Virus record (IMG/VR): IMGVR_UViG_3300006914_000005
Span: 1 to 47,350 of that record
Origin: a virus
Strand: one strand, 5' to 3'
DNA length: 47,350 nucleotides
How positions within the stretch are numbered: the first letter of the stretch is position 1; every line of letters begins with the position of its first letter. Shown piece by piece: positions 1 through 47,350 of the stretch. Under the pieces are notes generated by a model. That model was not told the origin of the DNA, did no database searches, and saw nothing but the letters and a program-made list of their open reading frames with translations. The position numbers were made by a program, and so were the translations under genes.

Positions 1-100
1 GTTGTAGCCGGAGACGTGACGTAGGCAAACTACGCTCTTCGGGGCGAGCTCGGCATCGGACACGCCCATGATTCTGAGCAGTCCAGACGCCTCGTCGCGC
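1..100. repeat. Terminal direct repeat, left copy
   Basis: These 100 bases are identical to the last 100 bases of the window. The portal reading frame runs through them without a break. The simplest reading is a circular or circularly permuted genome whose assembly ends overlap; a short physical terminal repeat is possible but less likely because the repeat lies inside a gene. Confidence 0.97.
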
Positions 101-10497: not shown

Positions 10498-10996
10498 GGA
10501 GATTCGTCCGTATCCGCGCATGCCGATCTACGAGGTGAGCAATCTCGGCCGCGTGCGCCGAGTCGGCGGCAAGTGGCTTTCGTTGCAAATCCGCAAGGAT
10601 CGTAGGCCGCAGTATTATGCGGTTACCCTTCACTACAACGGCAAGAAAACCCGTATCGAAGTGCAGCGCCTTGTCGCGTTGACGTTCTTAGGGGAGCCGC
10701 CGACAACTCGCCATGAAGTAGCGCATTGGGATGGGAACGGGTTGAATAATGCGGTAACTAACCTGCGGTGGGCTACGCGTAAAGAAAACTGCGCAGACAC
10801 GAAACGACACGGTCGCGTCCCTCACTTATTTGGCGCTGCCAGCCCGCGCTGTAAACTATCCGACGATGATGTTCGCGAGATCAGGCGGCGCTTTTGGGGC
10901 GGCGAGAATAGGCGCCGCATAGCCGCCGCCTTCAAAACCAGCCCCATGTACATCAGTCATATTGCCTATGGCCGGAGGCGCGAGCATGTCTCCTGA
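10490..10996 (+). CDS. HNH homing-type endonuclease with NUMOD4 and HTH
   Basis: A 168-residue protein. An N-terminal NUMOD4-like segment (YEVSNLGRVRRVGGKW) is followed by VQRLVALTFLGEPP and an HNH core with VAHWDGNGLNNAVTNLRWAT. The C-terminal KLSDDDVREIRRRFWGGENR and SPMYISHIAYGRR form a helix-turn-helix for target binding. This layout is typical of free-standing homing endonucleases in phages. GGAGG lies seven bases before the ATG. It overlaps the next gene by 11 bases, so it is an integrated part of the operon and not a visible recent insertion. Confidence 0.87.
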   Translation: MAEEIRPYPRMPIYEVSNLGRVRRVGGKWLSLQIRKDRRPQYYAVTLHYNGKKTRIEVQRLVALTFLGEPPTTRHEVAHWDGNGLNNAVTNLRWATRKENCADTKRHGRVPHLFGAASPRCKLSDDDVREIRRRFWGGENRRRIAAAFKTSPMYISHIAYGRRREHVS

Positions 10997-11903
10997 ATTT
11001 ACCGTGCCCGGCCCTGGTGTTTATGATTTAACACCGGAGCAATACCACGCCGATTGTTGCCCTGAACCGTCTCTCAGCTCCTCCGGCATCAAACGGTTGC
11101 TGAGCGGCTCGCCAGCGTCTTTTGCTTCGTGGCATCCTCGGCTCACCCGCTGGCCCGATCGTCTTCGCGACACCACGGACGCGCAGGATATCGGGGCCAT
11201 CGCGCACTGCATCGTCCTTGGCAAAGGGACGCGCTACATCGTCGGTGATCCATCCGAGCACCTGACCGAGAAAGGCGTCCCCTCTCAGACGTGGGGCAGC
11301 AAGGCTGCCGCGCAGTGGAAGGCAGCCCGTGAAGCCGATGGGTTGATCGTCATCACCCGCGAACGCTCAGCACGCGCCGAAACAGCGGCTCAGGTGATGA
11401 AGGATTTGATCGTTGCCGAGTACGGAGACTTCCCCCTCGGCGAGTCTGAGCAGGCCGTGATCTGGCGAGGCGAAACTTCGGCTCATGGGTCGATTTGGTG
11501 CCGCGCCTTAGTGGACCACATCTCGCGAAAGCACCTGCTGATCCTGGACCCTAAGTTCACGGATCTCGCAATCGATGACCGCTCTATCCAGCGCAAGGCC
11601 GCGTCCGAGCAGTGGCACATTCAGCAGGCGTTCTATACGGAAGGCGTCGAAGCGCTCGCACCGAACACCAAGGGGCGATGGGCGTTCCGCTTCGTCGTGT
11701 GCGAGTTGAATCCGCCGTTTCAGGCGCGCTTCGTTGACCTGCCCGAATCGTGGATTCACGTGGCCCGTATGCGGATCGACCGCGCCGCCGACACCTTCGC
11801 ACTCTGCCTAAAGAATAACTCTTGGCCGGCGCTGCCGAAGACGTGCTCGCCGCAGCCTCCCGATTGGCTCATGCGTGAGTACGAAGACGAGGAGTTGCGA
11901 TGA
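10986..11903 (+). CDS. RecE/RecB-like PD-(D/E)XK exonuclease
   Basis: A 305-residue nuclease. The N-terminal YHADCCPEPSLSSSGIKRLL opening, the LVDHIS Asp (177), the LDPK motif (Asp188, Lys190) and a QxxxY motif (Gln213-Tyr217) match the exodeoxyribonuclease VIII C-terminal/DUF3799 family. Such enzymes resect double-strand ends to make 3' tails for annealing. The gene is directly followed by a P-loop recombinase-type ATPase, the usual phage recombination pair. ATG 10986 has GGAGG seven bases upstream. Expected to act in the cytoplasm during replication and recombination. Confidence 0.85.
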   Translation: MSPEFTVPGPGVYDLTPEQYHADCCPEPSLSSSGIKRLLSGSPASFASWHPRLTRWPDRLRDTTDAQDIGAIAHCIVLGKGTRYIVGDPSEHLTEKGVPSQTWGSKAAAQWKAAREADGLIVITRERSARAETAAQVMKDLIVAEYGDFPLGESEQAVIWRGETSAHGSIWCRALVDHISRKHLLILDPKFTDLAIDDRSIQRKAASEQWHIQQAFYTEGVEALAPNTKGRWAFRFVVCELNPPFQARFVDLPESWIHVARMRIDRAADTFALCLKNNSWPALPKTCSPQPPDWLMREYEDEELR

Positions 11904-12874
11904 AACTTCCTGACCGGGAGTTTACAGCCTCTCTTGGCGTCCGCACGGAAGTCCCGCTCCTCGTCGGGCTAATGGGGCCGAGTGGCGGCGGGAAAACTTA
12001 TTCCGCGCTTCGGCTTGCAACTGGCATTCAATCCGTCCGCGGCGGCGATATCTACGTCGTCGATACGGAGGCTCGGCGTGCGCTTCACTACGCTGATCGC
12101 TTCAAGTTTCAGCACGTACCCTTCGCTGCGCCATTCGGATCTCTCGACTACCTCGCCGTGCTCCGCTACTGCGTCGGGAAGAAGGCTGGCGTCGTCATCG
12201 TAGACAGCATGAGCCACGAACACGAAGGAGAGGGCGGCTATCTCGCACTGCATGACGCGGAGCTCGACCGCATCGCAGGCGACGATTGGGACAAGCGCAA
12301 GCGGAACAACTTCACGGCGTGGATCAAGCCTGCCGCTAATCGGCGCGCGCTTATCAACGGCCTGTTGCAAATGGATGCCGCCTTCGTTTTTTGCTTCCGC
12401 GCGAAAGAGAAGATCAAGCCAGTGAAGGGCGGTGAGCCTATCGAACTCGGATTCATGCCGATCGCTGGCGAAGAGTTCCTTTTCGAGATGACCATCAACG
12501 CCCTGCTGATGCCGCATGCGGACGGTATCCCGACTTGGAGTTCCGAAAAGGTTGGCGAGAAACTGATGATGAAACTGCCGGCACAGTTTCGCGATCTGTT
12601 CGAGAAACCGCAGCAGATCAGCGAAGCGCACGGCAAGGCGATGGCCGAATGGGCCAAGGGCTCGGAATCTCGGAAGGAACCCACGTTGGCCGAGCGCGTC
12701 ACCGCAGCCATCGACTACATCATGAAGCGGAAGACGGAAGACGGCGTCAAGGCAGCGTTCGCGAAATGTGCCGATCTTATCGCCGAGGTGCAGAAGGCCG
12801 AGGACGTTGAATCCGCAGTCCGCATAACCTCAGCCCGCGACGAACGGTTGCGGCAGATTCAGGAGAGGCAATGA
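11900..12874 (+). CDS. AAA_24/Sak4-like recombination ATPase
   Basis: A 324-residue P-loop protein: Walker A GPSGGGKT at 26-33, Walker B GVVIVD at 97-102, and a C-terminal helical extension from about residue 240. The short RecA-like core next to an exonuclease matches the Sak4/AAA_24 group of phage single-strand-annealing or strand-exchange ATPases. It probably loads on tails made by the adjacent nuclease. ATGA-coupled to that gene. No separate single-strand binding protein was recognised nearby. Assignment to Sak4 rather than a related AAA family is moderate. Confidence 0.8.
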   Translation: MKLPDREFTASLGVRTEVPLLVGLMGPSGGGKTYSALRLATGIQSVRGGDIYVVDTEARRALHYADRFKFQHVPFAAPFGSLDYLAVLRYCVGKKAGVVIVDSMSHEHEGEGGYLALHDAELDRIAGDDWDKRKRNNFTAWIKPAANRRALINGLLQMDAAFVFCFRAKEKIKPVKGGEPIELGFMPIAGEEFLFEMTINALLMPHADGIPTWSSEKVGEKLMMKLPAQFRDLFEKPQQISEAHGKAMAEWAKGSESRKEPTLAERVTAAIDYIMKRKTEDGVKAAFAKCADLIAEVQKAEDVESAVRITSARDERLRQIQERQ

Positions 12875-13198: not shown

Positions 13199-13404
13199 TC
13201 GGCGACGCAGAGGACCGCAAGCTGATGGAAGAGTTGAACATGATATCGCCAGCTTGGCATCGTTCGTACCATCGATCCGCAGTGCGTCACGATCCACTCA
13301 CCGCGTCACCTTGTCGCATCTGTGATCACACTCACGGCTCGGAACCGTGCCTCGTGATTTCCGATGGTGAGCGCTGCCAATGCCGCGTGGGAGCGAAACG
13401 ATGA
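13195..13404 (+). CDS. Small Cys-rich protein
   Basis: A 69-residue protein with CRICDHTHGSEPCLVISDGERCQC near the C-terminus, a likely zinc-binding fold. It starts in an ATGA overlap and ends in an ATGA overlap with the RuvC-like gene, which suggests a shared recombination-related expression unit. Function not recognised. Confidence 0.6.
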   Translation: MIGDAEDRKLMEELNMISPAWHRSYHRSAVRHDPLTASPCRICDHTHGSEPCLVISDGERCQCRVGAKR

Positions 13405-13934
13405 GATTCGTAGGCATCGATCCTGGTACTACTGGCGCAGTCGCATCCATCGACGAGAGCGATATAGTTTTGCTCGATCTGCCAATCGTCACCATCTTTG
13501 TGGGTCGAAAGCGGCGATCAGTTCTGGACCTCCGCGCAACTTGGATAATGATGGATGGTCTCGCGACGTATCCAACGCATTTCTTTCTTGAGGCTCCGGT
13601 TATGGGGCCAGCCATGCGCGGAAGGGACAACACTGGTGACGGGACCGAACTCGCCGGACAGTCGATTGTGACGCTAGCCGGTACGTTTCGCCTGAATGGA
13701 CACATCGAAGCGATGCTTGCAGTGCTTGCGATTCAGAAGCATGCCAGCTTCGAGACGGTTAACCCGCAAGTGTGGAAACGAGCAATGATGCCAGGCGAAG
13801 CGCGCGACAAGAACGCTGCACGTTTGAAGGCAATTCAACTCTTCCCGTCCGTCGCTGATGACCTGAAACTCGTGAAGCATCACAATCGTGCCGAGGCGTT
13901 ATTGCTCGCCGAATGGGGACGGCGGCGAGGATAA
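13401..13934 (+). CDS. RuvC-like Holliday junction resolvase
   Basis: A 177-residue RNase H-fold nuclease: FVGIDPGTTGAVA at the N-terminus (Asp7), FFLEAPV (Glu64), NPQVWKRAMMP with downstream basic residues, and a C-terminal HHNRAEALLLAEW in place of the usual HxxDA motif (Glu165 may supply the last metal ligand). Such enzymes cut four-way junctions before packaging. It is coupled to its upstream neighbour and lies 0.5 kb after the recombination ATPase, completing an end-resection, annealing and resolution set. Confidence 0.82.
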   Translation: MRFVGIDPGTTGAVASIDESDIVLLDLPIVTIFVGRKRRSVLDLRATWIMMDGLATYPTHFFLEAPVMGPAMRGRDNTGDGTELAGQSIVTLAGTFRLNGHIEAMLAVLAIQKHASFETVNPQVWKRAMMPGEARDKNAARLKAIQLFPSVADDLKLVKHHNRAEALLLAEWGRRRG

Positions 13935-14152: not shown

Positions 14153-14445
14153 CTGAGTATCGTGTTGTCTGGCAGCGCGAAGGGTTGAGCGTTAAGCGCA
14201 GAATCTACAAAAGACGCTTGTCAGCCATTCGTCTCGTCCGCGTGATGACTGATCCAGAACCATGGAAGATGTTCGGCAAAGACGGTGATGAGTTCCTTTG
14301 CTGTTCTGGACGGGAATGCGGCTGCGAAGGTGTGACGATCGCAGAGAATTCGAAAGCCGAGCGCGAACGGATGCCTGCCCTGTTGTGGTATCGAATCGAA
14401 AGCCGCGAAGTCTCCGCGTGGTCTGTCGATGCGGAGGCTATTTGA
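14149..14445 (+). CDS. Hypothetical protein
   Basis: A 98-residue protein beginning TEYRVVWQREGLSVKRRIYK, with a basic beta-like first half and a CCSGRECGCEG cluster in the middle. GGAGG precedes the ATG, which overlaps the upstream stop. Its own stop overlaps a TTG start of the next frame. Function unknown. Confidence 0.62.
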   Translation: MTEYRVVWQREGLSVKRRIYKRRLSAIRLVRVMTDPEPWKMFGKDGDEFLCCSGRECGCEGVTIAENSKAERERMPALLWYRIESREVSAWSVDAEAI

Positions 14446-14579
14446 TCGCCTTCCCATTCCTCTGCGGCGCCGCAGCCGTCGTCCTCTTACAGGCGGTCGC
14501 GCACTTCGGCTACCCGCTGGTCCGGCCACACTGTGCCGGATTGAGAACGACGAAGCGTGCGACATACGCGGGCTCGTGA
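14442..14579 (+). CDS. Small membrane protein with chimeric C-terminus
   Basis: A 45-residue frame from TTG 14442, in a TTGA overlap, with GGAGG four bases upstream. Residues 1-29 (LIAFPFLCGAAAVVLLQAVA plus HFGYPLVRP) look like a genuine membrane helix. From base 14526 the DNA is identical to the 3' part of the XRE gene at 15591 but read in another frame, so the last 16 residues are out-of-frame foreign sequence. I read it as a small membrane gene truncated and re-ended by recombination. Confidence 0.42.
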   Translation: MIAFPFLCGAAAVVLLQAVAHFGYPLVRPHCAGLRTTKRATYAGS

Positions 14580-14608
14580 AGTTGCTCGCTTGGCTGTTCT
14601 CGTGAGGA
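14526..14608. repeat. 83-bp direct repeat R1, copy 1
   Basis: Identical over 83 bases to 15679-15761, the 3' end of the small XRE gene plus its downstream GAGGA. Here only the gene's tail is present (residues LCRIENDEACD to the stop at 14605), so this copy is a gene remnant. The match starts sharply at the CCACACTG point. Confidence 0.93.
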
Positions 14609-14611
14609 GCG

Positions 14612-14833
14612 ATGATGGACCGCAAATTCTGCGCTGGTTGCGAGGACGACTTCTACAACGGCAACAACCCGTACGGCGTGACCGAGTGCTGGAGTCTGAA
14701 AGACGCCGTTCGCATCAAGCGCAAGGAGGTCGGCGTGTGGCAAAGCCCGCCGTGGAATCAGAAGGCGGCGATGTTCCCGAAGTGCTACCACCGCAAGGGC
14801 TTCGTCTACGTCGCGCCAGAGCGGACGAACTGA
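14612..14833 (+). CDS. Cargo gene of cassette 1, small hypothetical protein
   Basis: A 73-residue protein with CAGCEDDFYNGNNPYGVTEC and PKCYH, likely zinc-binding, and a WNQKAAMFPKCYHRKGFVYV end. ATG 14612 (or 14615) follows GAGGAGC, which is the end of repeat R1. It is enclosed by R1 upstream and the R2-containing gene fragment downstream. No family recognised. Confidence 0.6.
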   Translation: MMDRKFCAGCEDDFYNGNNPYGVTECWSLKDAVRIKRKEVGVWQSPPWNQKAAMFPKCYHRKGFVYVAPERTN

Positions 14834-15072
14834 TGCGCCGCGCTAAGGTCACGAAGGCCACGATGGACGCCCTCTTCTCCACGCCGCCGCTAGACTACGA
14901 GGCCGAATTCGACGAGGTGCGGGCTGGCTATCCGAATCAGTTTGGTCGCGAGCAGGCGTTGAAGTATTACCTCGCTGATCGGCTGGAACTCGGGCATCGC
15001 GCGAATCCCGCTTCCGCTCAGCCGCCACATCGCGAGGGTGTACTTCCCTCCCGCCGACTCCACGGGGGTTGA
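14833..15072 (+). pseudogene. Truncated paralogue of the 16579 gene
   Basis: A 79-residue frame whose residues 11-53 (TPPLDYEAEFDEVRAGYPNQ and following) match the N-terminus of the 131-residue protein at 16579 almost exactly, then switches to GHRANPASAQPPHREG and other low-complexity sequence with no counterpart. It therefore lacks the conserved C-terminal domain and Cys-rich end. The ATG overlaps the upstream stop by one base. Probably a broken copy; a short functional version is possible. Confidence 0.6.
14863..14990. repeat. 128-bp direct repeat R2, copy 1
   Basis: Matches 16579-16706. The last 95 bases (14896-14990) are identical; the first 33 carry about six substitutions. Identity ends abruptly at GGCTGGAACT. 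Together with R1 it frames a different cargo gene from the second copy. Confidence 0.93.
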
Positions 15073-15590
15073 GGGAACGTCGCGGGGGTAGGAGCCGTGC
15101 GGCTCGACTACCCCGTTGACAGACCGGACGGCGCGGCGTACGCTCCGCCCTGCACATGGTCGAATCGCAGGGTAGCACAATCCTTGCCGGGCACGATAAC
15201 GAAAGCTCACCCGTCCTGAGCTATGGCTGGCCGCTCGCGTCAGTAGCGGCGACAATTTTTAGGCCATGTGTCTATCCGAGTCGAGGGCACTACGACCGAC
15301 GTCAGGGTCTCGTAGCCTAAACAAGCTACGGGTGCGCTGGCGGTCAGACCCCGCTGGCGCCGGAGGGAGCGCTGACAGCCCAAAGGATAGGAAGCCGGGG
15401 AGCACCCGCTACGACGGACTCCGGCGCTCCTCCGGGGGGAGATGACGGAGGGAGCTAGGGTAGAGGTTTGCGGGGAAGGGGAAGAGGGCGAATTTAATTC
15501 GGTCACATTTCCTTATCTAGGAACTTACCCAAAAGGTATTTCTTCGCGCGCCTGTTGCTTTTCTGAAATCGCGGACCTAAACTAACGCGC
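15073..15590 (+). ncRNA. Gene-free segment with many hairpins; candidate structured RNA
   Basis: No credible gene in 518 bases, unlike the packed surroundings. Perfect stems occur at 15085-15114 (GGGGTAG/CTACCCC with an inner GAGCC/GGCTC), 15148-15172 (CCCTGC/GCAGGG), 15204-15222 (AGCTCA/TGAGCT), 15230-15250 (GCCGCT/AGCGGC) and 15311-15330 (CGTAGC/GCTACG). A TTGACA at 15116 with TACGCT 17 bases later could start a transcript. The last 100 bases are AT-richer, with a GAATTTAATTC palindrome (15490-15500). GC-rich DNA makes short stems by chance, so this is a candidate only; it could also be an origin or insertion scar. Confidence 0.33.
15555..15583 (+). promoter_or_regulatory. Candidate promoter of the small XRE gene
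   Basis: TTGCTT (15555-15560), 17-base spacer, TAAACT (15578-15583), only seven bases before the ATG at 15591. If used, the transcript would be leaderless. Possible operators upstream are GAATTTAATTC (15490-15500) and TACCCAAAAGGTA (15526-15538). Confidence 0.35.
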
Positions 15591-15758
15591 ATGCGAATTG
15601 GAGAAGCACTCAAGGCGTACCGATTCAAGCGTGAGGTAGATCAACGGACGCTTGCGAAGGAGATCGGCGTCTCGGCATCCACACTGTGCCGGATTGAGAA
15701 CGACGAAGCGTGCGACATACGCGGGCTCGTGAAGTTGCTCGCTTGGCTGTTCTCGTGA
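15591..15758 (+). CDS. Small XRE-family HTH protein
   Basis: A 55-residue DNA-binding protein that is almost only an HTH_XRE domain: MRIGEALKAYRFKREVDQRT, then LAKEIGVSASTLCRIEND as the helix-turn-helix, then a closing GLVKLLAWLFS helix. It has no oligomerisation domain, as in Cro-like or cargo-regulating proteins. No ribosome site precedes the ATG; a leaderless message is possible. Its 3' 80 bases recur at 14526-14605, so it is part of a recombining cassette flank and may control the two cargo genes that follow. Confidence 0.78.
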   Translation: MRIGEALKAYRFKREVDQRTLAKEIGVSASTLCRIENDEACDIRGLVKLLAWLFS

Positions 15759-15761
15759 GGA
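15679..15761. repeat. 83-bp direct repeat R1, copy 2
   Basis: Identical to 14526-14608. This copy lies within the intact small XRE gene and its immediate downstream bases, and so is the likely source sequence. Confidence 0.93.
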
Positions 15762-15774
15762 ATAGGAGAAAGTA

Positions 15775-16065
15775 ATGCCTTCGAAAACGAAACAACGCCC
15801 CGTTATCGTCACCACCGCGCACCGCGGCGTGTTCTTCGGCTACGCAGACGACACATCGGGCGCGTCGATCAAACTCGCGAGAGCGAGACTCTGCGTCTAC
15901 TGGACGGCGGACCTGCGCGGCTTCATGGGGCTTGCTTCAATCGGGCCGTCGAAACAGTGCAAGATCGGTCCGCCCGCCGACATCGAACTTCGCGACATCA
16001 CGTCCGTCGTTGAGGTAAGCGCGGAGGCCGTGACGAAGTGGGAGGCGGCGCCGTGGGCGAACTGA
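15775..16065 (+). CDS. DUF6948-like hypothetical protein, cargo of cassette 2
   Basis: A 96-residue protein: PVIVTTAHRGVFFGYADDTS, then ARARLCVYWTADLRGFMGLA, then GPSKQCKIGPPADIELRDIT and an EAVTKWEAAPWAN end. This layout (TTAHRGVF...CVYW...GLA..GP...W..APW) is one I associate with a widespread phage protein family of unknown function. A TAGGAGAAAG ribosome site precedes the ATG. It lies between repeats R1 and R2 and is followed with little spacing by the Gly-Tyr-Gly-Asp repeat protein. Confidence 0.68.
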   Translation: MPSKTKQRPVIVTTAHRGVFFGYADDTSGASIKLARARLCVYWTADLRGFMGLASIGPSKQCKIGPPADIELRDITSVVEVSAEAVTKWEAAPWAN

Positions 16066-16574
16066 TTCGCGGCGAAGTGCCGGAGTGGACACACTCCGGC
16101 TACGGCTACGGCGACGGCTACGGCGACGGCTCCGGCTACGGCTACGGCGACGGCTCCGGCTCCGGCTCCGGCTACGGCTACGGCGACGGCTCCGGCTCCG
16201 GCTACGGCTCCAATTGGCGTCAGAAGTACGCCGTCGCTCGCTCAGTATGGATGCAGGACAAACACGACCGAGCGCGAATCGCGGCAGCCGAAGAGTCGGC
16301 ATCAGTGATTGCGTTTTGGTGCTCAGATGGAAATGGTTTGCCGATTAATGGCGGCAGTAGAGACATTGAGCCAGCGCGACCGGGCCGCACGCTCGTGTCG
16401 GAAGGGCCCCTCCAACTCTGTTCGCGTGGCACGTTGCACGCGACTATGAAGCCTGATAACTGGCGGTGGGAGAGGGTATGGGTTGTCGCGCTGTACGGCC
16501 CTTACGTCACGGATGGTGAGAAATACGGAGCGTTGCGACGTGAGATCATCGGCGAAATCAAAGTTGCCGCGTAA
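16053..16574 (+). CDS. Gly-Tyr/Asp/Ser repeat protein
   Basis: A 173-residue protein. After ELIRGEVPEWTHS comes a low-complexity run of about 38 residues of alternating Gly with Tyr, Asp or Ser, then NWRQKYAVARSVWMQDKHDR and a C-terminal domain with IAFWCSDGNGLPINGG, LCSRGTLHATMKPDNW and RWERVWVVALYGPYV. The C-terminal half resembles a recurrent phage protein type whose N-terminal repeats can vary in number. GTG 16053 has GGAGG seven bases upstream and overlaps the preceding gene by 13 bases. Function unknown; the repeat may be flexible or self-associating. Confidence 0.7.
   Translation: MGELIRGEVPEWTHSGYGYGDGYGDGSGYGYGDGSGSGSGYGYGDGSGSGYGSNWRQKYAVARSVWMQDKHDRARIAAAEESASVIAFWCSDGNGLPINGGSRDIEPARPGRTLVSEGPLQLCSRGTLHATMKPDNWRWERVWVVALYGPYVTDGEKYGALRREIIGEIKVAA
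16098..16211. repeat. Tandem 6-bp repeat (GGCTAC/GGCGAC/GGCTCC), 19 units
   Basis: Nineteen in-frame hexamers, all starting GGC, encode Gly-Tyr, Gly-Asp or Gly-Ser. The units cluster into higher-order blocks (Tyr-Tyr-Asp followed by Ser runs), which indicates growth by unequal exchange or slippage. Copy number may vary between phage isolates without breaking the frame. Confidence 0.93.
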
Positions 16575-16578
16575 GGCC

Positions 16579-16706
16579 ATGGATTCGCTCTTCGCCACGC
16601 CGCCGCTCGATTACGAGGCCGAATTCGACGAGGTGCGGGCTGGCTATCCGAATCAGTTTGGTCGCGAGCAGGCGTTGAAGTATTACCTCGCTGATCGGCT
16701 GGAACT
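16579..16706. repeat. 128-bp direct repeat R2, copy 2
   Basis: The intact counterpart of 14863-14990: near identical over 33 bases, then identical over 95. It forms the 5' end of the full-length gene at 16579. Confidence 0.93.
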
Positions 16707-16974
16707 TGGCGAGGACGCCCCGAAGCGCATTCAGTCAGCAAAACGGAACTACCTTGCGTTTCTAGCGCGTCCTGATCAGAGTTGGCGGCAACCGCTAAAC
16801 CTGAAGACATTCTTCAACAACTGGCGCGATTTCGAAGCTATGGCTCAAGAATCGGTCTGCCCGTTCGCTACGCGTGAACTCTGTTGCGAGATGCGCGCTG
16901 GAGGTAAATCAATCTGCACCAAGCACGGCTTCGGCGTTCGCGTCGAAATCCCCGACGACGAGGTGCCCTTCTGA
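16579..16974 (+). CDS. Replication-protein-like small protein with Cys-rich tail
   Basis: A 131-residue protein. Residues 10-90 (EAEFDEVRAGYPNQFGREQA, LKYYLADRLELGEDAPKRIQ, then LARPDQSWRQPLNLKTFFNN and WRDF) follow the pattern of a helical domain found at the C-terminus of phage replication initiator and helicase-loader proteins (FxxxxxxYPxxxxxxxA...P..WL....W.D). The tail has CPFATRELCCEM and CTKHG, possibly zinc-binding. Its 5' 128 bases are duplicated at 14863. ATG 16579 is inferred from that shared start. A replication role is inference. Confidence 0.62.
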   Translation: MDSLFATPPLDYEAEFDEVRAGYPNQFGREQALKYYLADRLELGEDAPKRIQSAKRNYLAFLARPDQSWRQPLNLKTFFNNWRDFEAMAQESVCPFATRELCCEMRAGGKSICTKHGFGVRVEIPDDEVPF

Positions 16975-16982
16975 GGAGCGAA

Positions 16983-17405
16983 ATGCCGACTCAACTCTGC
17001 GTCAACGAATGCGGAAGGGTGGTAGGTGAGCAACTGAACGTTTGCTGTCAGCCGTGCCAGTTCGGAAAACCGCACACGCCGGAGTGCGACGCACGCGAAG
17101 CGTTGAACGATGCTATTGATAAATGGTGGTTCGCCGATCACTTTGGTGATGATTGCAGTATCTCGCCGGCGAACCATTCCGCCGAGTGTGTCGACGAAGC
17201 ATTTAAGGGCGGGTGGAACGCACGCGGCAAGCAAGCCGATACCCGCAAGGCTGCGGCGTACGACAGGCTGCGAGAGATCGCTAATCAGCACATCTGCCAT
17301 ATGCGTGCCTGTGCGTTTTGGGAGAAGCCGAGTTATAGATGTGACTGCGGCCGCGACGAGGCGTTGGGCCAAATCGCTGCTCTCGACGCCGAGGTGCGGG
17401 GATGA
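16983..17405 (+). CDS. Cys-rich hypothetical protein
   Basis: A 140-residue protein with many Cys residues: CVNECG, CCQPCQFG, CDAREA, then a helical centre (WNARGKQADTRKAAAYDRLR) and CHMRACAFW...CDCGRDEA near the C-terminus. Probably two zinc-binding ends joined by helices. GAGGAGC lies five bases before the ATG; it is ATGA-coupled downstream. No family recognised. Confidence 0.65.
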   Translation: MPTQLCVNECGRVVGEQLNVCCQPCQFGKPHTPECDAREALNDAIDKWWFADHFGDDCSISPANHSAECVDEAFKGGWNARGKQADTRKAAAYDRLREIANQHICHMRACAFWEKPSYRCDCGRDEALGQIAALDAEVRG

Positions 17406-17846: not shown

Positions 17847-18356
17847 ATGAACATCACCGACGATCTGCGGCGCCGCTTCGAAGAAAAGACAACACCCGAG
17901 CCGATGAGTGGGTGCCTGCTCTGGATTGGCGCCACAATCTCGCGGGGGTATGGAACGTTCTTTGTGAGCGGCAAAATCCTGAAGGCGCATCGCGCTGCAT
18001 GGTTACTCGCCGGCCTAGAGTTGCCGAATGATGTCTGCGTACTTCACCGTTGTGACAACCGAGCGTGTGTCAACGTACGGCACTTATTCCTCGGCACTGT
18101 GAGAGACAACTCTCGCGATATGGCACTGAAGTGCCGAGGCACGAGCAGCAAGCTGGGAGTTCCCTATGGAGTTGTGAGGCACGGCCGCGGCTACAGAGCG
18201 CAGGTAGGATTCAACAACAAAGTCTATCGCCTCGGAATCTTTGATACCGCCGAGGAGGCGTCGCGTGCCGCGACAGAGTTCAAATTACAGAATGGCGATG
18301 CTCGTTCGCTGACAACTTTCAGCGAGCGAAAACGCCCTCATCGACGGAGAAGCTGA
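17847..18356 (+). CDS. HNH endonuclease with AP2 DNA-binding domain
   Basis: A 169-residue protein. The first half is an HNH_3-type nuclease: [31 protein letters not shown], then [20 protein letters not shown]. The second half ([20 protein letters not shown], then [19 protein letters not shown]) is an AP2/ERF-like DNA-binding domain. This pairing is known from phage and ciliate homing endonucleases, which insert near or into conserved genes. ATG 17847 is chosen because GAGGAAG lies six bases upstream; ATG 17832 overlaps the previous stop and is the alternative. It precedes the exported-protein block. Confidence 0.86.
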
Positions 18357-19492
18357 TGCGCCTAGTGAAGCGTATTGTTCTTGCTTGTCTTCTTGTCACG
18401 GCTACGGTGGAGGCTCAGTACTGGGCGCAGCCGGCCAAGACTGCTAATATCGACGTGAAATGCGCGGGCTGCGCAGGTAGAGCTAACGGCCAAATGACCC
18501 CCGGCTTCCCTCCAGCGCTCGGCACGTACCTCGGGCGTTTCCTCGATAGCTCCGCAACGAACGACTTTCAGCAGCCCGTGAGATCCATGCGTGCCGTGTC
18601 GGTCATCCCGCGGCCGGACCTGAACCGCATCTACATGCAGATCGGGAGCTCGGTCATGGCATGGAACCTCGACAGCTTTTTCGCGCGAGTCGCGGCTGGT
18701 GAGCGGTTGCAGCCGGGGCAGGGATCGGGCGGGCGGCCTGTGCCGGACGTAGCGCTGCCGTTCGATAGCTGGTACTACGCCGAGTTGCAGGGCTCGGGAT
18801 GGGACGTGTCGTCGGGCGGTGATGGTCAAACGCGGCTATTCGGCCTCGACGTGGACGACCAAGGATTCGTCTACCTTGCCACCAAAGTCTACCGCTGGGG
18901 CATCGTCCGAGATGATCGACGCCGCGAAGGTGCGCTGATGCAGTTCGTATGGCAAGCGCCGCCGACTGCCGACGCCGTAATCCCGAATGCGGTTGCTGCG
19001 CTCAAAGGGTCGGATGGTCGGTATTATGCGGTCATCAGCGATGTGACCGGCTCGACACTCAACGTGTACGACATGACGGACAGGGCGAATCCAGTGAAGC
19101 GCGGGAACGTGCAACGGTCGATGTATCGATTCGCCAAGAACGCCGACGCGACGCGCGTGGCGATTGCGACGGTTGACGGAAGGCTTGAGATTTACACGAC
19201 CGATGCGCTCGTGTCGGGCGGGCAACCGCTGTTCACGCGCAGCGATCCGGCCGCGATGATCCGCGGCGTGGCAAGCGATGGGGTGAATTTTTTCAGTGCA
19301 ATGGATGCGTCGAGCGGGCTGGTGATCTCCTCGTACGCGCCGAGCGGGAGCGGGTACGTGAAGACGAGCGAGTTGCAGACCGGGCGCGCAACGCTGGCGA
19401 CGGAGAGCCTGCGATACGGTGGCGGGTACTTGACGCAAGCCGGTATCACGGACGGGAGTTACGAACTGCGGTTGTTCAAGGTGGCGCGATGA
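18356..19492 (+). CDS. Exported beta-propeller-like protein
   Basis: A 378-residue precursor with a signal peptide ([20 protein letters not shown], likely cut before QYW). Near the mature N-terminus is CAGCAGRANG, which looks haem- or metal-related but lacks the His of a CxxCH site. The rest is beta-rich with recurring strands and Asp-Gly turns (RLFGLDVDDQGFVYLATKVY; YYAVISDVTGSTLNVYDMTD; RVAIATVDGRLEIYTTDALV), consistent with a propeller. Such a secreted protein is not a usual virion or lysis component. It begins the accessory block of exported proteins and may alter the host envelope or bind external ligands. Confidence 0.68.
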   Translation: MRLVKRIVLACLLVTATVEAQYWAQPAKTANIDVKCAGCAGRANGQMTPGFPPALGTYLGRFLDSSATNDFQQPVRSMRAVSVIPRPDLNRIYMQIGSSVMAWNLDSFFARVAAGERLQPGQGSGGRPVPDVALPFDSWYYAELQGSGWDVSSGGDGQTRLFGLDVDDQGFVYLATKVYRWGIVRDDRRREGALMQFVWQAPPTADAVIPNAVAALKGSDGRYYAVISDVTGSTLNVYDMTDRANPVKRGNVQRSMYRFAKNADATRVAIATVDGRLEIYTTDALVSGGQPLFTRSDPAAMIRGVASDGVNFFSAMDASSGLVISSYAPSGSGYVKTSELQTGRATLATESLRYGGGYLTQAGITDGSYELRLFKVAR

Positions 19493-19995
19493 ACACATTT
19501 CGAGGGTACGGCAGGATCAATCTCGCGCGCGCGATGCGTTGGCACCGCGGCGGCCTTGACGAGTGGAGCGTTACAGACTGGGCGACGGCACTTGCAGGCG
19601 AAGTCGGTGAACTTTGTAACGCAGTAAAGAAGTTCCGCCGCGTCGAGGATCGCCTTCAGGGGCATGACGGCGACACACCACAGCCGGCGGATGTTGCCGC
19701 TGCGGTGAAGGCGATTAAGAAAGAGGTTGGGGACGTGTTCGCCTATCTTGATCTGCTCGCACAGCGCTTCGATCTCGATACATGGGAGTGTGTGCGCGAC
19801 ACGTTCAATCAGATCAGTGAACGGGAACAGATGCCGGAACGGATGCCGTCCGACTTCGACGACGAGTTTCTTAAACGGCTGACGCTGATCCGTGACGCAG
19901 TCGAATTGATCAGTACTGATCGCGACTTCGTCGTACATTCGAACCGGGTGACAGAGGAAGCACTGGAACGGATCAAGAGGGCAGCCAATGTCTAA
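19489..19995 (+). CDS. MazG-like nucleotide pyrophosphohydrolase
   Basis: A 168-residue helical protein with the paired acidic motifs of the all-alpha NTP-PPase fold: GEVGELCNAVKK (Glu38, Glu41) and KKEVGDVFAYLDLLA (Glu79, Asp82), which bind Mg2+. These enzymes hydrolyse nucleoside triphosphates, or in phages perhaps ppGpp-type alarmones, and shift host metabolism. The C-terminal 70 residues are extra relative to minimal MazG. It lies between two exported-protein genes and overlaps the next by eight bases. Confidence 0.8.
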   Translation: MNTFRGYGRINLARAMRWHRGGLDEWSVTDWATALAGEVGELCNAVKKFRRVEDRLQGHDGDTPQPADVAAAVKAIKKEVGDVFAYLDLLAQRFDLDTWECVRDTFNQISEREQMPERMPSDFDDEFLKRLTLIRDAVELISTDRDFVVHSNRVTEEALERIKRAANV

Positions 19996-21334
19996 GCCGA
20001 CTCTGTGCATGGAAGTGGTTAGTGCTCCGCAGGACAGCGGTGGCTCTATCGAGTTGGTGCGATGCTGCATCCCGGAGCCGTGTTGGCGTCATCACGGCGG
20101 CAACCCGCCTCGCTGGCGTAGATTCTTGATCGCTATCGGCAGGAGGCTCGCGATTCTAGCGGGACTCCTCCTTCTCGCTGCAACCGCATTCGGTCAGGCC
20201 ATCACCGAAGTCGATCTGAGCCTGCCAGCCAAGCCTGGCTTCCGCGGCTTCTACTTCAAGAATTACTACGTGCAGAACACGACGGGGCGAGACGGCTACG
20301 TCGGCGCTGGCCTGTTCGGGCAGCTGCACGACTCAGCGGTCATCCGCGGCCCGCTCGGCACCTATCTCGTCGTCACGGCGTTCGGCTTGGGCGACGTATA
20401 CCAGCTCGACGGCACGCCGGGTCCGCAGCCGACGCAGCCACCTGCACAGCCGCCGACTCAGCCTCCCGCTCAACCGCCAACACAACCTCCGACGCAGCCT
20501 CCCGCTCAGCCCCCGCAACCGCAGGGCTGCGGCACGATGAACCCCGCCGCTGGCAACGTCTTCATCTTCTACCAGTCCACCGACAGCGCCTGCTCGTTCC
20601 TCGGCGGCATGTGCAACGCTGGCGTCACGATCGGCTTCCGCGCCAACAACGGCTTCGGCTACGATTTCGGCTGCGCGAACCACACCTTTCAGTGGTTCTT
20701 CGGCGATGGCGGTACGGCGCAAGGGCAGGCCGCCTCGCACGCGTACGCGGCGGGGAGCTACACGGCAACCGTGCGCATTCGAAACGCGCAGACCGGGCAG
20801 CAGGTGGACGTGCAGGCGCCCGTGCGGGTCGTGGGAGAAGGACCGCAGCCACCAGCTCAACCGCCTGTTCAACCGCCCGTCCAGCCGCCGCAGCCGTGTC
20901 CTGATGCGCCGCCGTGTCCGACGTGCCAGCCCTGCCCCGTGTGTCCGACGCAGCCACCGGTTCAGCCTCCCGTTCAGCCCCCGGTCCAGCCGCCTACCCA
21001 GCCTCCGGCGCAGCCGACGAGCGGATGTCCGCCGTTCGTCCCTATGAGCCCGGATCTCTTCTTCAGCGGATCGGACTGCTCGTCGCGTAACGCCGAGCCA
21101 TGCGACGTCGGCGAAGTTGTGAGATTCAACGTCATCAACTTCCGCTTTGGCGATTGCAGCACTGCTGGGCGATCGTTCGCGTGGAACTTCGGCGACAACA
21201 GAACGGATGCGACGACTGACACGACGACGACACACCGCTACGAGCGCGCAGGTACGTACAACGTACAGGTGACGGTGACGGTCGAAGGGCGGACGGTTGT
21301 GCTCGCGAAGAGCGTGACGGTGGAGGAGCCGTGA
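19988..21334 (+). CDS. Exported double-PKD protein with Pro-Gln linkers
   Basis: A 448-residue protein. Residues 46-70 hold a basic then hydrophobic segment (RRLAILAGLLLLAATAFGQA), a signal peptide or anchor preceded by an unusual 45-residue cytoplasmic-style N-terminus with Cys residues. Then come a small domain (71-142), a PPTQPPAQ linker (144-179), a PKD domain (about 183-283, FQWFFGDGG...SHAYAAGSYTATVRI), a second PPVQ linker with a CPTCQPCPVCP cluster (285-346) and a second PKD domain (350-445, FAWNFGDNR...THRYERAGTYNVQVTV). PKD domains mediate surface protein or carbohydrate contacts. It would be displayed on the host or released; a virion role is less likely. Confidence 0.72.
   Translation: MSKPTLCMEVVSAPQDSGGSIELVRCCIPEPCWRHHGGNPPRWRRFLIAIGRRLAILAGLLLLAATAFGQAITEVDLSLPAKPGFRGFYFKNYYVQNTTGRDGYVGAGLFGQLHDSAVIRGPLGTYLVVTAFGLGDVYQLDGTPGPQPTQPPAQPPTQPPAQPPTQPPTQPPAQPPQPQGCGTMNPAAGNVFIFYQSTDSACSFLGGMCNAGVTIGFRANNGFGYDFGCANHTFQWFFGDGGTAQGQAASHAYAAGSYTATVRIRNAQTGQQVDVQAPVRVVGEGPQPPAQPPVQPPVQPPQPCPDAPPCPTCQPCPVCPTQPPVQPPVQPPVQPPTQPPAQPTSGCPPFVPMSPDLFFSGSDCSSRNAEPCDVGEVVRFNVINFRFGDCSTAGRSFAWNFGDNRTDATTDTTTTHRYERAGTYNVQVTVTVEGRTVVLAKSVTVEEP
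20417..20524. repeat. Pro-Gln linker repeats, first block
   Basis: Imperfect 12-15 base units (variants of CAGCCGCCGACTCAGCCTCCC) encode repeated QPPTQPPA. The second block at 20840-21025 encodes the similar QPPVQPP units. Both are flexible linkers within the PKD protein and prone to length change. Confidence 0.8.
20840..21025. repeat. Pro-Gln linker repeats, second block
   Basis: Repeats encoding QPPVQPP, interrupted by the segment encoding CPDAPPCPTCQPCPVCP. This six-Cys island in a proline linker is unusual; it could crosslink chains by disulphides once exported. Confidence 0.8.
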
Positions 21335-45908: not shown

Positions 45909-47350
45909 TGGTCACTCCTTGCGCCGCCATCGCGGCAGCCTCTTCGGCCTTCTGTGCAGCTTCCTCTTGGAGGGATTGCTCCAATTCGGCGAGCATCTTC
46001 TCGTCGATGACAAAGTGCTGAGTATCGAGACGGTAACTCCGAATCTGCTCGGCAAGCAAACGATTGCCGCGCAGAATCATGAACTTGGCCACATCTCGCT
46101 TCGCCTCCGGCTGCTCGCCGTCGAGGGCAATCGAGAGCAACTTCATGTCCGCTTCGTTCTGCAACTCGACGCGCTGCGCGAGTAGACCGGCCTTCTCAAA
46201 ACGCGCTTGCGATGAATCGTCGTCTCCGGTCGCGGTGACGTGACATGAGAAATGCTGCGAGATCACCTCACGCGGGAAGCCAATGATCTTCGAAGTAGTG
46301 CGGCGTTTATCTTTGTCGTTGAACGGGATGATGGCATACGCGGAGAACTGCGCGACCGTCTCCACGTACATCATCGCCGCCTGCGCGATGGACCGACGAA
46401 TGCCGCGCATCGTCGCTACGGACTGCTCCTTCGCGCGCTGGTAAACCTGTGCGACCGTGGCTCCGGGCGTCCGATTCGGCACGGAAGTCTCGTCGCGCAC
46501 GAGAAGATCGTCCGCCATGCTGCGAATGACGGCGATCTCCGGAGCGAGCGTTTCGATCGGGGCGCCGAGCTGCACCGAGTTCACGTCGGAAGGTTCATCG
46601 AACGGTATGCGCTGCCCGGGACGTAGGGGACCGGGATGTTGCTTGAAGTAACGATCCGTGGCCGAGTTTTCGCGGTAAAAGTGGACCTTGATGGCGTTCT
46701 GCACCTTGTTCTGCATTTGGAGATGCAGGAAGTTGGAGACAAGGTTCTGAAGCGGGGCCACGTCGCCTGCCGCCGACATTCCGGTCAGCCGATGCGGGCG
46801 GCGATGACGGATGAACGGAATGAGCAGGCGCTTTCCGCTCCATGACCAATTGCAGGTCATGTTCAGCCACGTCCGGCTCTTCAGGTGCAACTCGCCGATG
46901 AGCGAACGGATCTCAATTTCGAGAGTCTTCTCGCCACGCTTCGGCGCCCGCAGGAGCAGAGGATGAAAAAATGACACCGTCCGCACATCGTGCTCGTCGC
47001 GCGGGTGCTCGGCGACGAGCGAATCCATGGCATCGGCGCGCGCGGCAACTGGATCATCTCGGCGCACATCCTCCCCGAAAGCGAAGACGCGGCGGACCAG
47101 GTCATCGTTCGTCCCGCGGCGCGTCGGCTTGCGCGCGAAGTCGTACCGCCCTGCGCTGATGCCTTCCCATAGCTCTTCATTCGTCCGCGGCGTTTTTTCG
47201 GACACCCACCATGCCTTTTGAATGTCCGAGCACGGCAGGGAGTGCGTTATGTTGTAGCCGGAGACGTGACGTAGGCAAACTACGCTCTTCGGGGCGAGCT
47301 CGGCATCGGACACGCCCATGATTCTGAGCAGTCCAGACGCCTCGTCGCGC
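45748..47350 (-). CDS. Portal protein, C-terminal part (gene starts at 735)
   Basis: This continues the portal gene from base 1 into 47250 (bases 47251-47350 repeat 1-100). It supplies about 500 codons: beta-rich wing segments, a long helical crown region (QRAKEQSVATMRGIRRSIAQ, then SALSIALDGE-like helices with EQIRSYRLDTQHFVIDEKML) and a final disordered tail of Pro, Gly and Gln (GQGPPGGVPGQPVPAGIPQP) overlapped by the next gene. The coiled, Gln-rich stretch and long C-terminal barrel fit podovirus portals such as that of P22. The gene must be read across the junction to be complete. Confidence 0.82.
   Translation of the reverse strand, partial: RDEASGLLRIMGVSDAELAPKSVVCLRHVSGYNITHSLPCSDIQKAWWVSEKTPRTNEELWEGISAGRYDFARKPTRRGTNDDLVRRVFAFGEDVRRDDPVAARADAMDSLVAEHPRDEHDVRTVSFFHPLLLRAPKRGEKTLEIEIRSLIGELHLKSRTWLNMTCNWSWSGKRLLIPFIRHRRPHRLTGMSAAGDVAPLQNLVSNFLHLQMQNKVQNAIKVHFYRENSATDRYFKQHPGPLRPGQRIPFDEPSDVNSVQLGAPIETLAPEIAVIRSMADDLLVRDETSVPNRTPGATVAQVYQRAKEQSVATMRGIRRSIAQAAMMYVETVAQFSAYAIIPFNDKDKRRTTSKIIGFPREVISQHFSCHVTATGDDDSSQARFEKAGLLAQRVELQNEADMKLLSIALDGEQPEAKRDVAKFMILRGNRLLAEQIRSYRLDTQHFVIDEKMLAELEQSLQEEAAQKAEEAAAMAAQGVTSGANVSPQGAPGSLPAAPPGQGPPGGVPGQPVPAGIPQPPQPGVGQQPAPPVQ
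47251..47350. repeat. Terminal direct repeat, right copy
   Basis: Identical to bases 1-100. It lies inside the portal gene and shows that the sequence closes on itself. Confidence 0.97.

Follow-up and report, generated by a model that had tools for sequence, protein, structure and literature searches.

The viral genome record IMGVR_UViG_3300006914_000005 of IMG/VR (47,350 nucleotides, analysed in full and called the window below) contains at 14526-16709 a locus in which two short flanking sequences, R1 and R2, occur twice in the same order and enclose different cargo genes. Sequence comparison indicates that this region is likely to be a mosaic early-region locus of a group of ~47-kb phages, in which homology-assisted mosaicism has been caught as a partial tandem duplication. 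Phage gene swapping via short shared sequences, as against random joining, is a long-standing question, and the locus offers a snapshot of it, with an intact and a broken allele in one genome and breakpoints placed to within tens of bases. The genes and repeats of the locus and the recombination genes upstream of it lie on the forward strand. Positions are those of the window; positions in other viral contigs are given with locus (L) numbers.

Two copies of the same flanks enclose different cargo

R1 is identical at 83 of 83 positions between copy 1 (14526-14608) and copy 2 (15679-15761). The R2 pair (14863-14993 and 16579-16709) covers 131 bp, of which 124 match (95%) and seven do not, with an identical core of 95 bp (14896-14990 in copy 1). 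In copy 1, R1 consists of the terminal 27 codons and a few further bases of a gene for a small XRE-type regulator, the helix-turn-helix (HTH) head being absent, and R2 is the head of a gene for a 131-residue protein, which is ruptured at ~14993. In copy 2 both genes are complete: R1 forms the 3′ portion of an intact XRE gene, and R2 the head of an intact 131-residue gene (16579-16974). The cargo of copy 1 is a single gene for a 73-residue protein, and that of copy 2 is a DUF6948 gene followed by a Gly-Tyr-Gly-Asp gene. The initial annotation had described this arrangement, and every coordinate, as well as the truncated and intact states of the flanking genes, was confirmed. A search of the whole window for direct repeats of at least 40 bp returned only R1, R2, low-complexity Gly/Pro arrays and a 100-bp terminal repeat, so a chance origin of the R1 and R2 pairs is excluded.

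Both flanks were also found together in one viral contig from a different metagenome, IMGVR_UViG_3300025928_000014 (L003/L004), which helped to place the ends of copy 1. Upstream, R1 is fused to what remains of a small membrane-protein gene, its 5′ part as far as ~14525, producing a frame (14442-14579) that stops at the TGA within GTGAAG of the XRE tail. L004 carries an intact homologue of this gene (MTLLAFLCGV..FGYPLVRR), and the similarity ends at 14526 in the window and 6059 in L004. The joins at 14526 and ~14993 show almost no microhomology. Since the homology of copy 1 with L004 starts ~34 bp upstream of R2, the 131-residue gene of copy 1 probably begins at 14833.

The mismatches between the two R2 copies are not evenly spread. 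Six of the seven fall within positions 1-33 of R2, and the following 95 are free of them (P = 0.0005 under random placement). When the window is compared with L004, variable sites are scattered along the whole of R2, so greater constraint does not by itself account for the clean core. The clustering is most simply read as the mark of a recombination breakpoint, in this one flank only, with its signature at ~16612 in copy 2: the first ~33 bp of the copy-2 131-residue gene would have arrived with the DUF6948 cargo, the crossover lying just behind. Because R1 and the R2 core together hold 178 identical bases, against ~80-85% identity between the window and L004, the duplication appears to be either recent or evened out by recombination.

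Related phages carry other cargo behind the same left flank

In L004, the interval between the XRE gene (80% identity) and the 131-residue gene (74% over residues 1-104) is occupied by a TROVE and vWA gene (TROVE, E 1e-10; Ro60 vWA, E 2.2e-7). Directly upstream of the TROVE gene lies an RNA that matches the Rfam family YrlA with 34 bits (E 1.6e-5), below the curated cut-off of 69. The phage-borne Ro60-like (TROVE/vWA) gene and YrlA-like RNA extend over L004:8319-9901. The XRE-to-131-residue interval thus exists in three cargo versions, namely DUF6948 with the Gly-Tyr gene, the 73-residue gene, and Ro60 with a Y-RNA-like sequence. A deeper profile search with the 131-residue protein or the XRE protein brought up no third phage carrying the two together. 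The 131-residue protein has its match in L004 only, with no relative in the bacterial genomes searched (genome_contigs), and a functional label could not be assigned to it or to the 73-residue protein. No DNA match to 14400-17000 was found among annotated phages. Neither the window nor L004 contains a tRNA, and an explanation through tRNA genes was rejected.

The XRE gene ends in a 30-bp tail, GTGAARYTNYTNGYNTGGYTNTTYTCNT, that encodes VKLLAWLFS and a stop (link A; 14576-14605 in copy 1 and 15729-15758 in copy 2, inside R1) and is common to four other phages. A degenerate pattern of the last 28 bp of XRE hit exactly four viral contigs besides the window, from four different metagenomes. Among 61 related loci gathered by a search from the neighbouring AAA_24 gene, XRE was detected by protein search in two and XRE-tail DNA in three. 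The tail is 96.7-100% identical among L136, L140 and L143 and 87-90% identical to the window, and its substitutions are synonymous or exchange Ala and Val. In L136, it terminates an intact XRE gene (60% identity to that of the window). L143 and L140 have lost the XRE body, and the 30-bp tail stands alone behind unrelated HTH genes (HTH_3, E 8.7e-10 and 1.5e-12), with an extra small Cys-rich gene between HTH gene and tail in L140. A different small gene follows the tail in each of these three phages, and the stretches between the tail and the next conserved segment (link B) show no more similarity to one another than shuffled sequence. Across the five phages and their six versions of the locus, the cargo behind the left flank, either XRE or its final 30 bp, thus differs every time; conservation of the right flank holds inside each subgroup. 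The initial annotation had proposed looking in relatives for varied cargo between conserved flanks, and such cargo was found, Ro60-like in L004 and other genes in L136, L143 and L140.

Link A is one of many such sequences. Link B (the GTCGGATCTTTGAATG region, ~18-44 bp) is 91-100% conserved among L136, L143 and L140, and link C (~49-69 bp) 90-98%. L136 and L143 are ~91% identical in long blocks, and over ~20 kb each they also share 13 short blocks that lie between non-homologous stretches. The blocks measure 30-98 bp, and ten reach an identity of at least 90%, so that this pair is well suited to the mapping of exchange points. Because of these 13 blocks, cargo exchange between short shared sequences appears as a general property of the early region, R1 being one link of many, rather than of a special site. 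The proposal of a recombination-driven exchange site is accordingly retained for the exchange of cargo, which the relatives bear out, and given up for the special site. The window terminase is 66-67% identical to those of the L136 and L143 contigs and 28-30% identical to those of the L140 and L004 contigs; by these comparisons the phages of the set are related but mosaic.

Other pairings of small regulators with small genes were seen elsewhere. In two distant phages, small XRE genes precede small Cys-rich genes, and the ends of the genes overlap (L005:8001-8410 and L085:6001-6380).

DUF6948 and the Gly-Tyr gene form a portable pair

The DUF6948 protein of copy 2 (15775-16065, 96 residues; PF22253, E 6.4e-24) is followed by a Gly-Tyr/Ser/Asp repeat protein with a C-terminal DUF7666-like domain (16038-16574), whose likely start at 16053 overlaps the DUF6948 gene. 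We found 69 viral loci with DUF6948, 52 of which (51 relatives and the window) had enough downstream sequence. Downstream of DUF6948, the Gly-Tyr/Ser/Asp repeat was present in 50 of the 52, the conserved C-terminal domain in 37, and either of them in 51. Coding similarity of any kind in the 1-kb flanks was seen in 22 of 1225 pairs of loci upstream and 31 of 1176 downstream. On the strength of this linkage among almost always unrelated neighbours, the two genes (loci L013-L081 and window 15775-16574) qualify as a widespread portable phage pair. In L017 (8294-8527) and L030 (8351-8590), HNH endonuclease-like sequences split DUF6948 from the Gly-Tyr C-terminal domain.

An AlphaFold model of DUF6948 (predicted local distance difference test score, pLDDT, 90.9) gave PDB matches of which the top ones were mostly Sm/LSm proteins (probability 0.99-1.00, E 0.007-0.03), with template modelling (TM) scores against solved structures of up to 0.74 to the target. 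A profile search of PDB sequences revealed no similarity of DUF6948 to Sm, LSm or Hfq proteins, and because this sequence support is absent the Sm/LSm-like fold stays a prediction. Modelling of the Gly-Tyr protein's C-terminal domain gave a pLDDT of 90.1, and the top match of the domain in BFVD was DUF7666 (E 6.8e-4, probability 1.00); a PDB fold search gave no solved-structure match, and a Pfam scan of this stretch gave one weak unrelated match only. A literature search did not find a paper naming the DUF6948 family. From the models, the pair looks like an undescribed RNA-binding module. As a widespread, unstudied two-gene module whose predicted Sm-like fold makes RNA binding a testable prediction, it is the part of the locus most worth following.

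A bolder interpretation would have the locus serve as a docking place where ribonucleoprotein modules are taken up. In this case, the pair would be able to form RNA-protein assemblies, a predicted Sm/LSm-like protein binding RNA and its partner combining a low-complexity [G/S]Y[G/S] array with a DUF7666-like domain, the pair would occupy the operon position held by Ro60 and Y RNA in L004, and the XRE tail would be a reusable joint, its 30 bp coupling any HTH regulator to any cargo. We regard this as rather unlikely.

The cargo of copy 1 is a Cys-containing protein of 73 residues (14612-14833) with no match in Pfam, PHROG or NCBIfam. Its homologues, 38-58% identical, occur in five viral contigs with differing neighbours. 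In one of them (L009:7770-8252), the homologue follows a small gene that appears HTH-like by eye and has no Pfam match.

Recombination genes and a possible course of events

Three genes for recombination functions sit 0.6-4 kb upstream of the locus. They encode an exonuclease VIII (RecE)-like protein (10962-11903; phrog_412, E 3.2e-47), an adjoining AAA_24 ATPase that is a candidate Sak4-type recombinase (11900-12874; PF13479, E 3.7e-6; phrog_1366, of unknown function, E 1.7e-45) and a RuvC-like Holliday junction resolvase (13380-13934; phrog_1770, E 4.2e-22). The recE-like gene lies beside the AAA_24 gene in 57 of the 61 related loci. The AAA_24 protein showed no match to a Sak4 model and no convincing solved relative by sequence. 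Relaxed homologous recombination has been shown experimentally to generate mosaics of this kind (Martinsohn 2008, PMC2327257; De Paepe 2014, PMC3945230), and Sak4 proteins are named among the recombinases that tolerate short or diverged homology (PMC5499656). Because phage recombinases tolerate such homology in experiments (PMC2327257, PMC3945230), it is plausible that the RecE-, AAA_24- and RuvC-like genes helped the exchange. The initial annotation had these genes driving it; their presence nearby is borne out, their driving role is not.

The following course of events may be envisaged. A small HTH regulator, a cargo and the next gene would meet at short conserved links. Co-infecting phages would recombine in or beside these links with the assistance of phage recombination proteins, and one cargo would replace another. 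In the window, part of a sibling allele, made up of the XRE tail, the 73-residue gene and the 131-residue head, would have been joined upstream at non-homologous ends, and the intact allele would have taken up the DUF6948 and Gly-Tyr pair with a crossover ~33 bp into the 131-residue gene. Occasional illegitimate joins would leave broken copies such as copy 1.

Several observations weigh against this reading. The two flanks together are known from just one other phage, and the three versions of the XRE-to-131-residue interval come from two genomes. No donor genome was found for copy 1. The Sak4 assignment of the AAA_24 gene rests on a weak Pfam match and on its neighbourhood. Finally, the junctions at 14526 and ~14993 are without homology, which implies that illegitimate recombination also took part.

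Alternative explanations

This last point could be carried further, to purely illegitimate recombination followed by selection, where joins occur anywhere, those at gene borders survive and the links are leftovers rather than recombination substrates. The near lack of microhomology at both ends of copy 1 fits such a history, and among other phages 432 of 635 temperate-temperate mosaics were without traces of homology (PMC3945230). However, the clustered R2 mismatches and the 95-bp identical core favour exchange inside shared sequence, and the same 30-bp XRE tail is reused beside unrelated genes in three genomes, so that we consider this explanation doubtful, though worth bearing in mind. Link A might also have been retained for translation instead of recombination, as a translated coupling linker whose GTGA overlaps the upstream stop and whose own stop overlaps or adjoins the cargo start. 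All three frames that run into headless tails (window copy 1, L140 and L143) end at the TGA in GTGAAG, the tail's own TGA overlaps the likely, inferred cargo start in L136, L143 and L140, and the synonymous or Ala/Val substitutions of the tail are in line with this. These starts are inferred, however, and agreement of three frames is expected by chance in about 1 case in 27. In window copy 2 and in L004, XRE and the cargo are separated by a gap, and the cargo has its own ribosome-binding sites. We therefore hold a coupling linker to be an unlikely reason for the conservation of link A.

Two further explanations would place the duplication outside phage evolution or make it a working device. 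Because the record is metagenomic, two strain variants of one population could have been merged into a false tandem, and the exact repeat cores of 83 and 95 bp, both shorter than the 100-bp terminal repeat, could confuse a short-k stage of assembly. Yet copy 1 is bounded by non-homologous joins at 14526 and ~14993, which are not a product of repeat-driven misassembly and rule out a simple assembly collapse, and the same kind of remnant tail occurs in independent contigs; an artefact is thus improbable. A programmed, reversible cassette switch (phase variation) within one genome is suggested by direct repeats of 83 and 131 bp within 2.2 kb and by the recombination genes near them, and the initial annotation had entertained swapping or deletion of this kind. 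Recombination between the R1 copies would delete 14526-15678, and between the R2 copies 1716 bp. As copy 1 has no XRE head, either event loses the XRE promoter and HTH head (15509-15678). Copy 1 contains no intact flank gene, so no rearrangement restores a complete alternative unit, and inverted repeats were not seen at the ends. A reversible switch was rejected on the loss of XRE and is extremely improbable. Homology-assisted mosaicism with illegitimate joins at the ends of copy 1 remains our preferred reading.

Relation to known systems

The initial annotation regarded the locus as something other than a standard phage module. This view could not be upheld, as the literature already describes exchange across short conserved flanks and by relaxed homologous recombination (PMC2327257, PMC3945230); the mechanism is of a known kind, and the locus is an unusually legible new case. 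In lambdoid phages, modules are exchanged across short conserved flanks (Clark et al. 2001, HK620, as cited in PMC2327257), and as far as that citation describes them, different genes likewise lie between short shared sequences and are explained by homologous recombination in the flanks. The present case differs in that the phages are uncultivated and their region has no DNA match among annotated phages. In addition, the window genome holds two cargo versions in tandem, and what serves as one of the flanks is the final 30 bp of a regulator gene whose body was replaced elsewhere. The studies of relaxed recombination (PMC2327257, PMC3945230) share with our case the short diverged homologies, the breakpoints at mosaic borders and the recombination genes in the genome, whereas our candidate for the annealing protein belongs to the RecA-like type (AAA_24, possibly Sak4) instead of the Rad52-like type and is known from sequence alone. 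The Start Associated Sequences of cluster K mycobacteriophages (PMC3203893) are also short sequences conserved by the starts of different small genes. They consist of a 13-bp motif repeated many times upstream of starts, whereas link A is coding and has a single location in each genome except the window, which has two.

With regard to Ro60 (TROVE)/Y RNA modules (Pfam TROVE, Rfam YrlA), the L004 cargo matches both parts, the RNA below the Rfam cut-off. The window does not contain this module.

In aca-acr (anti-CRISPR) operons, a small HTH gene stands beside varied small genes, as at this locus. Compared by gene layout, the present locus differs in that the HTH gene leads and larger predicted RNA-binding modules are among the cargo.

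Other features of the locus and the window

The intact XRE/Cro-type regulator (15591-15758) has 55 residues and matches HTH_31 (E 6.5e-6) and HTH_3 (E 7.3e-5). A promoter-like element, TTGCTT-N17-TAAACT (15555-15583), ends 7 bp before its ATG. The hexamers and the 17-bp spacing are the same in L004 and L136, and the XRE promoter region starts where the preceding gene ends in L004. The element scores below the threshold of a consensus scan, and we regard it as a candidate XRE promoter that would give a leaderless transcript.

Between the two copies lies an orphan, apparently non-coding stretch of 515 bp (14994-15508) that is GC-rich and rich in inverted repeats. No convincing gene and no Rfam match, even at E 5, were found in it, and no DNA homologue was found in phages, plasmids or 20 relatives. 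A structured RNA was considered and rejected, since the stretch folds like its shuffles (z -0.6 on the forward and -0.1 on the reverse strand; best 200-nucleotide window ~-2.5). A 29-bp piece (15005-15033) matches L091:1930-1958 at 93% and is perhaps another short link.

The exact 100-bp direct repeat at the ends of the window (1-100 and 47251-47350) reflects either a closed assembly or a short terminal redundancy. Downstream of the locus, positions 19988-21334 encode a 448-residue protein with long Pro-Gln-Pro repeats between Cys-containing stretches, and the adjoining gene (18356-19492) has apparent relatives in L136, L143 and L140.

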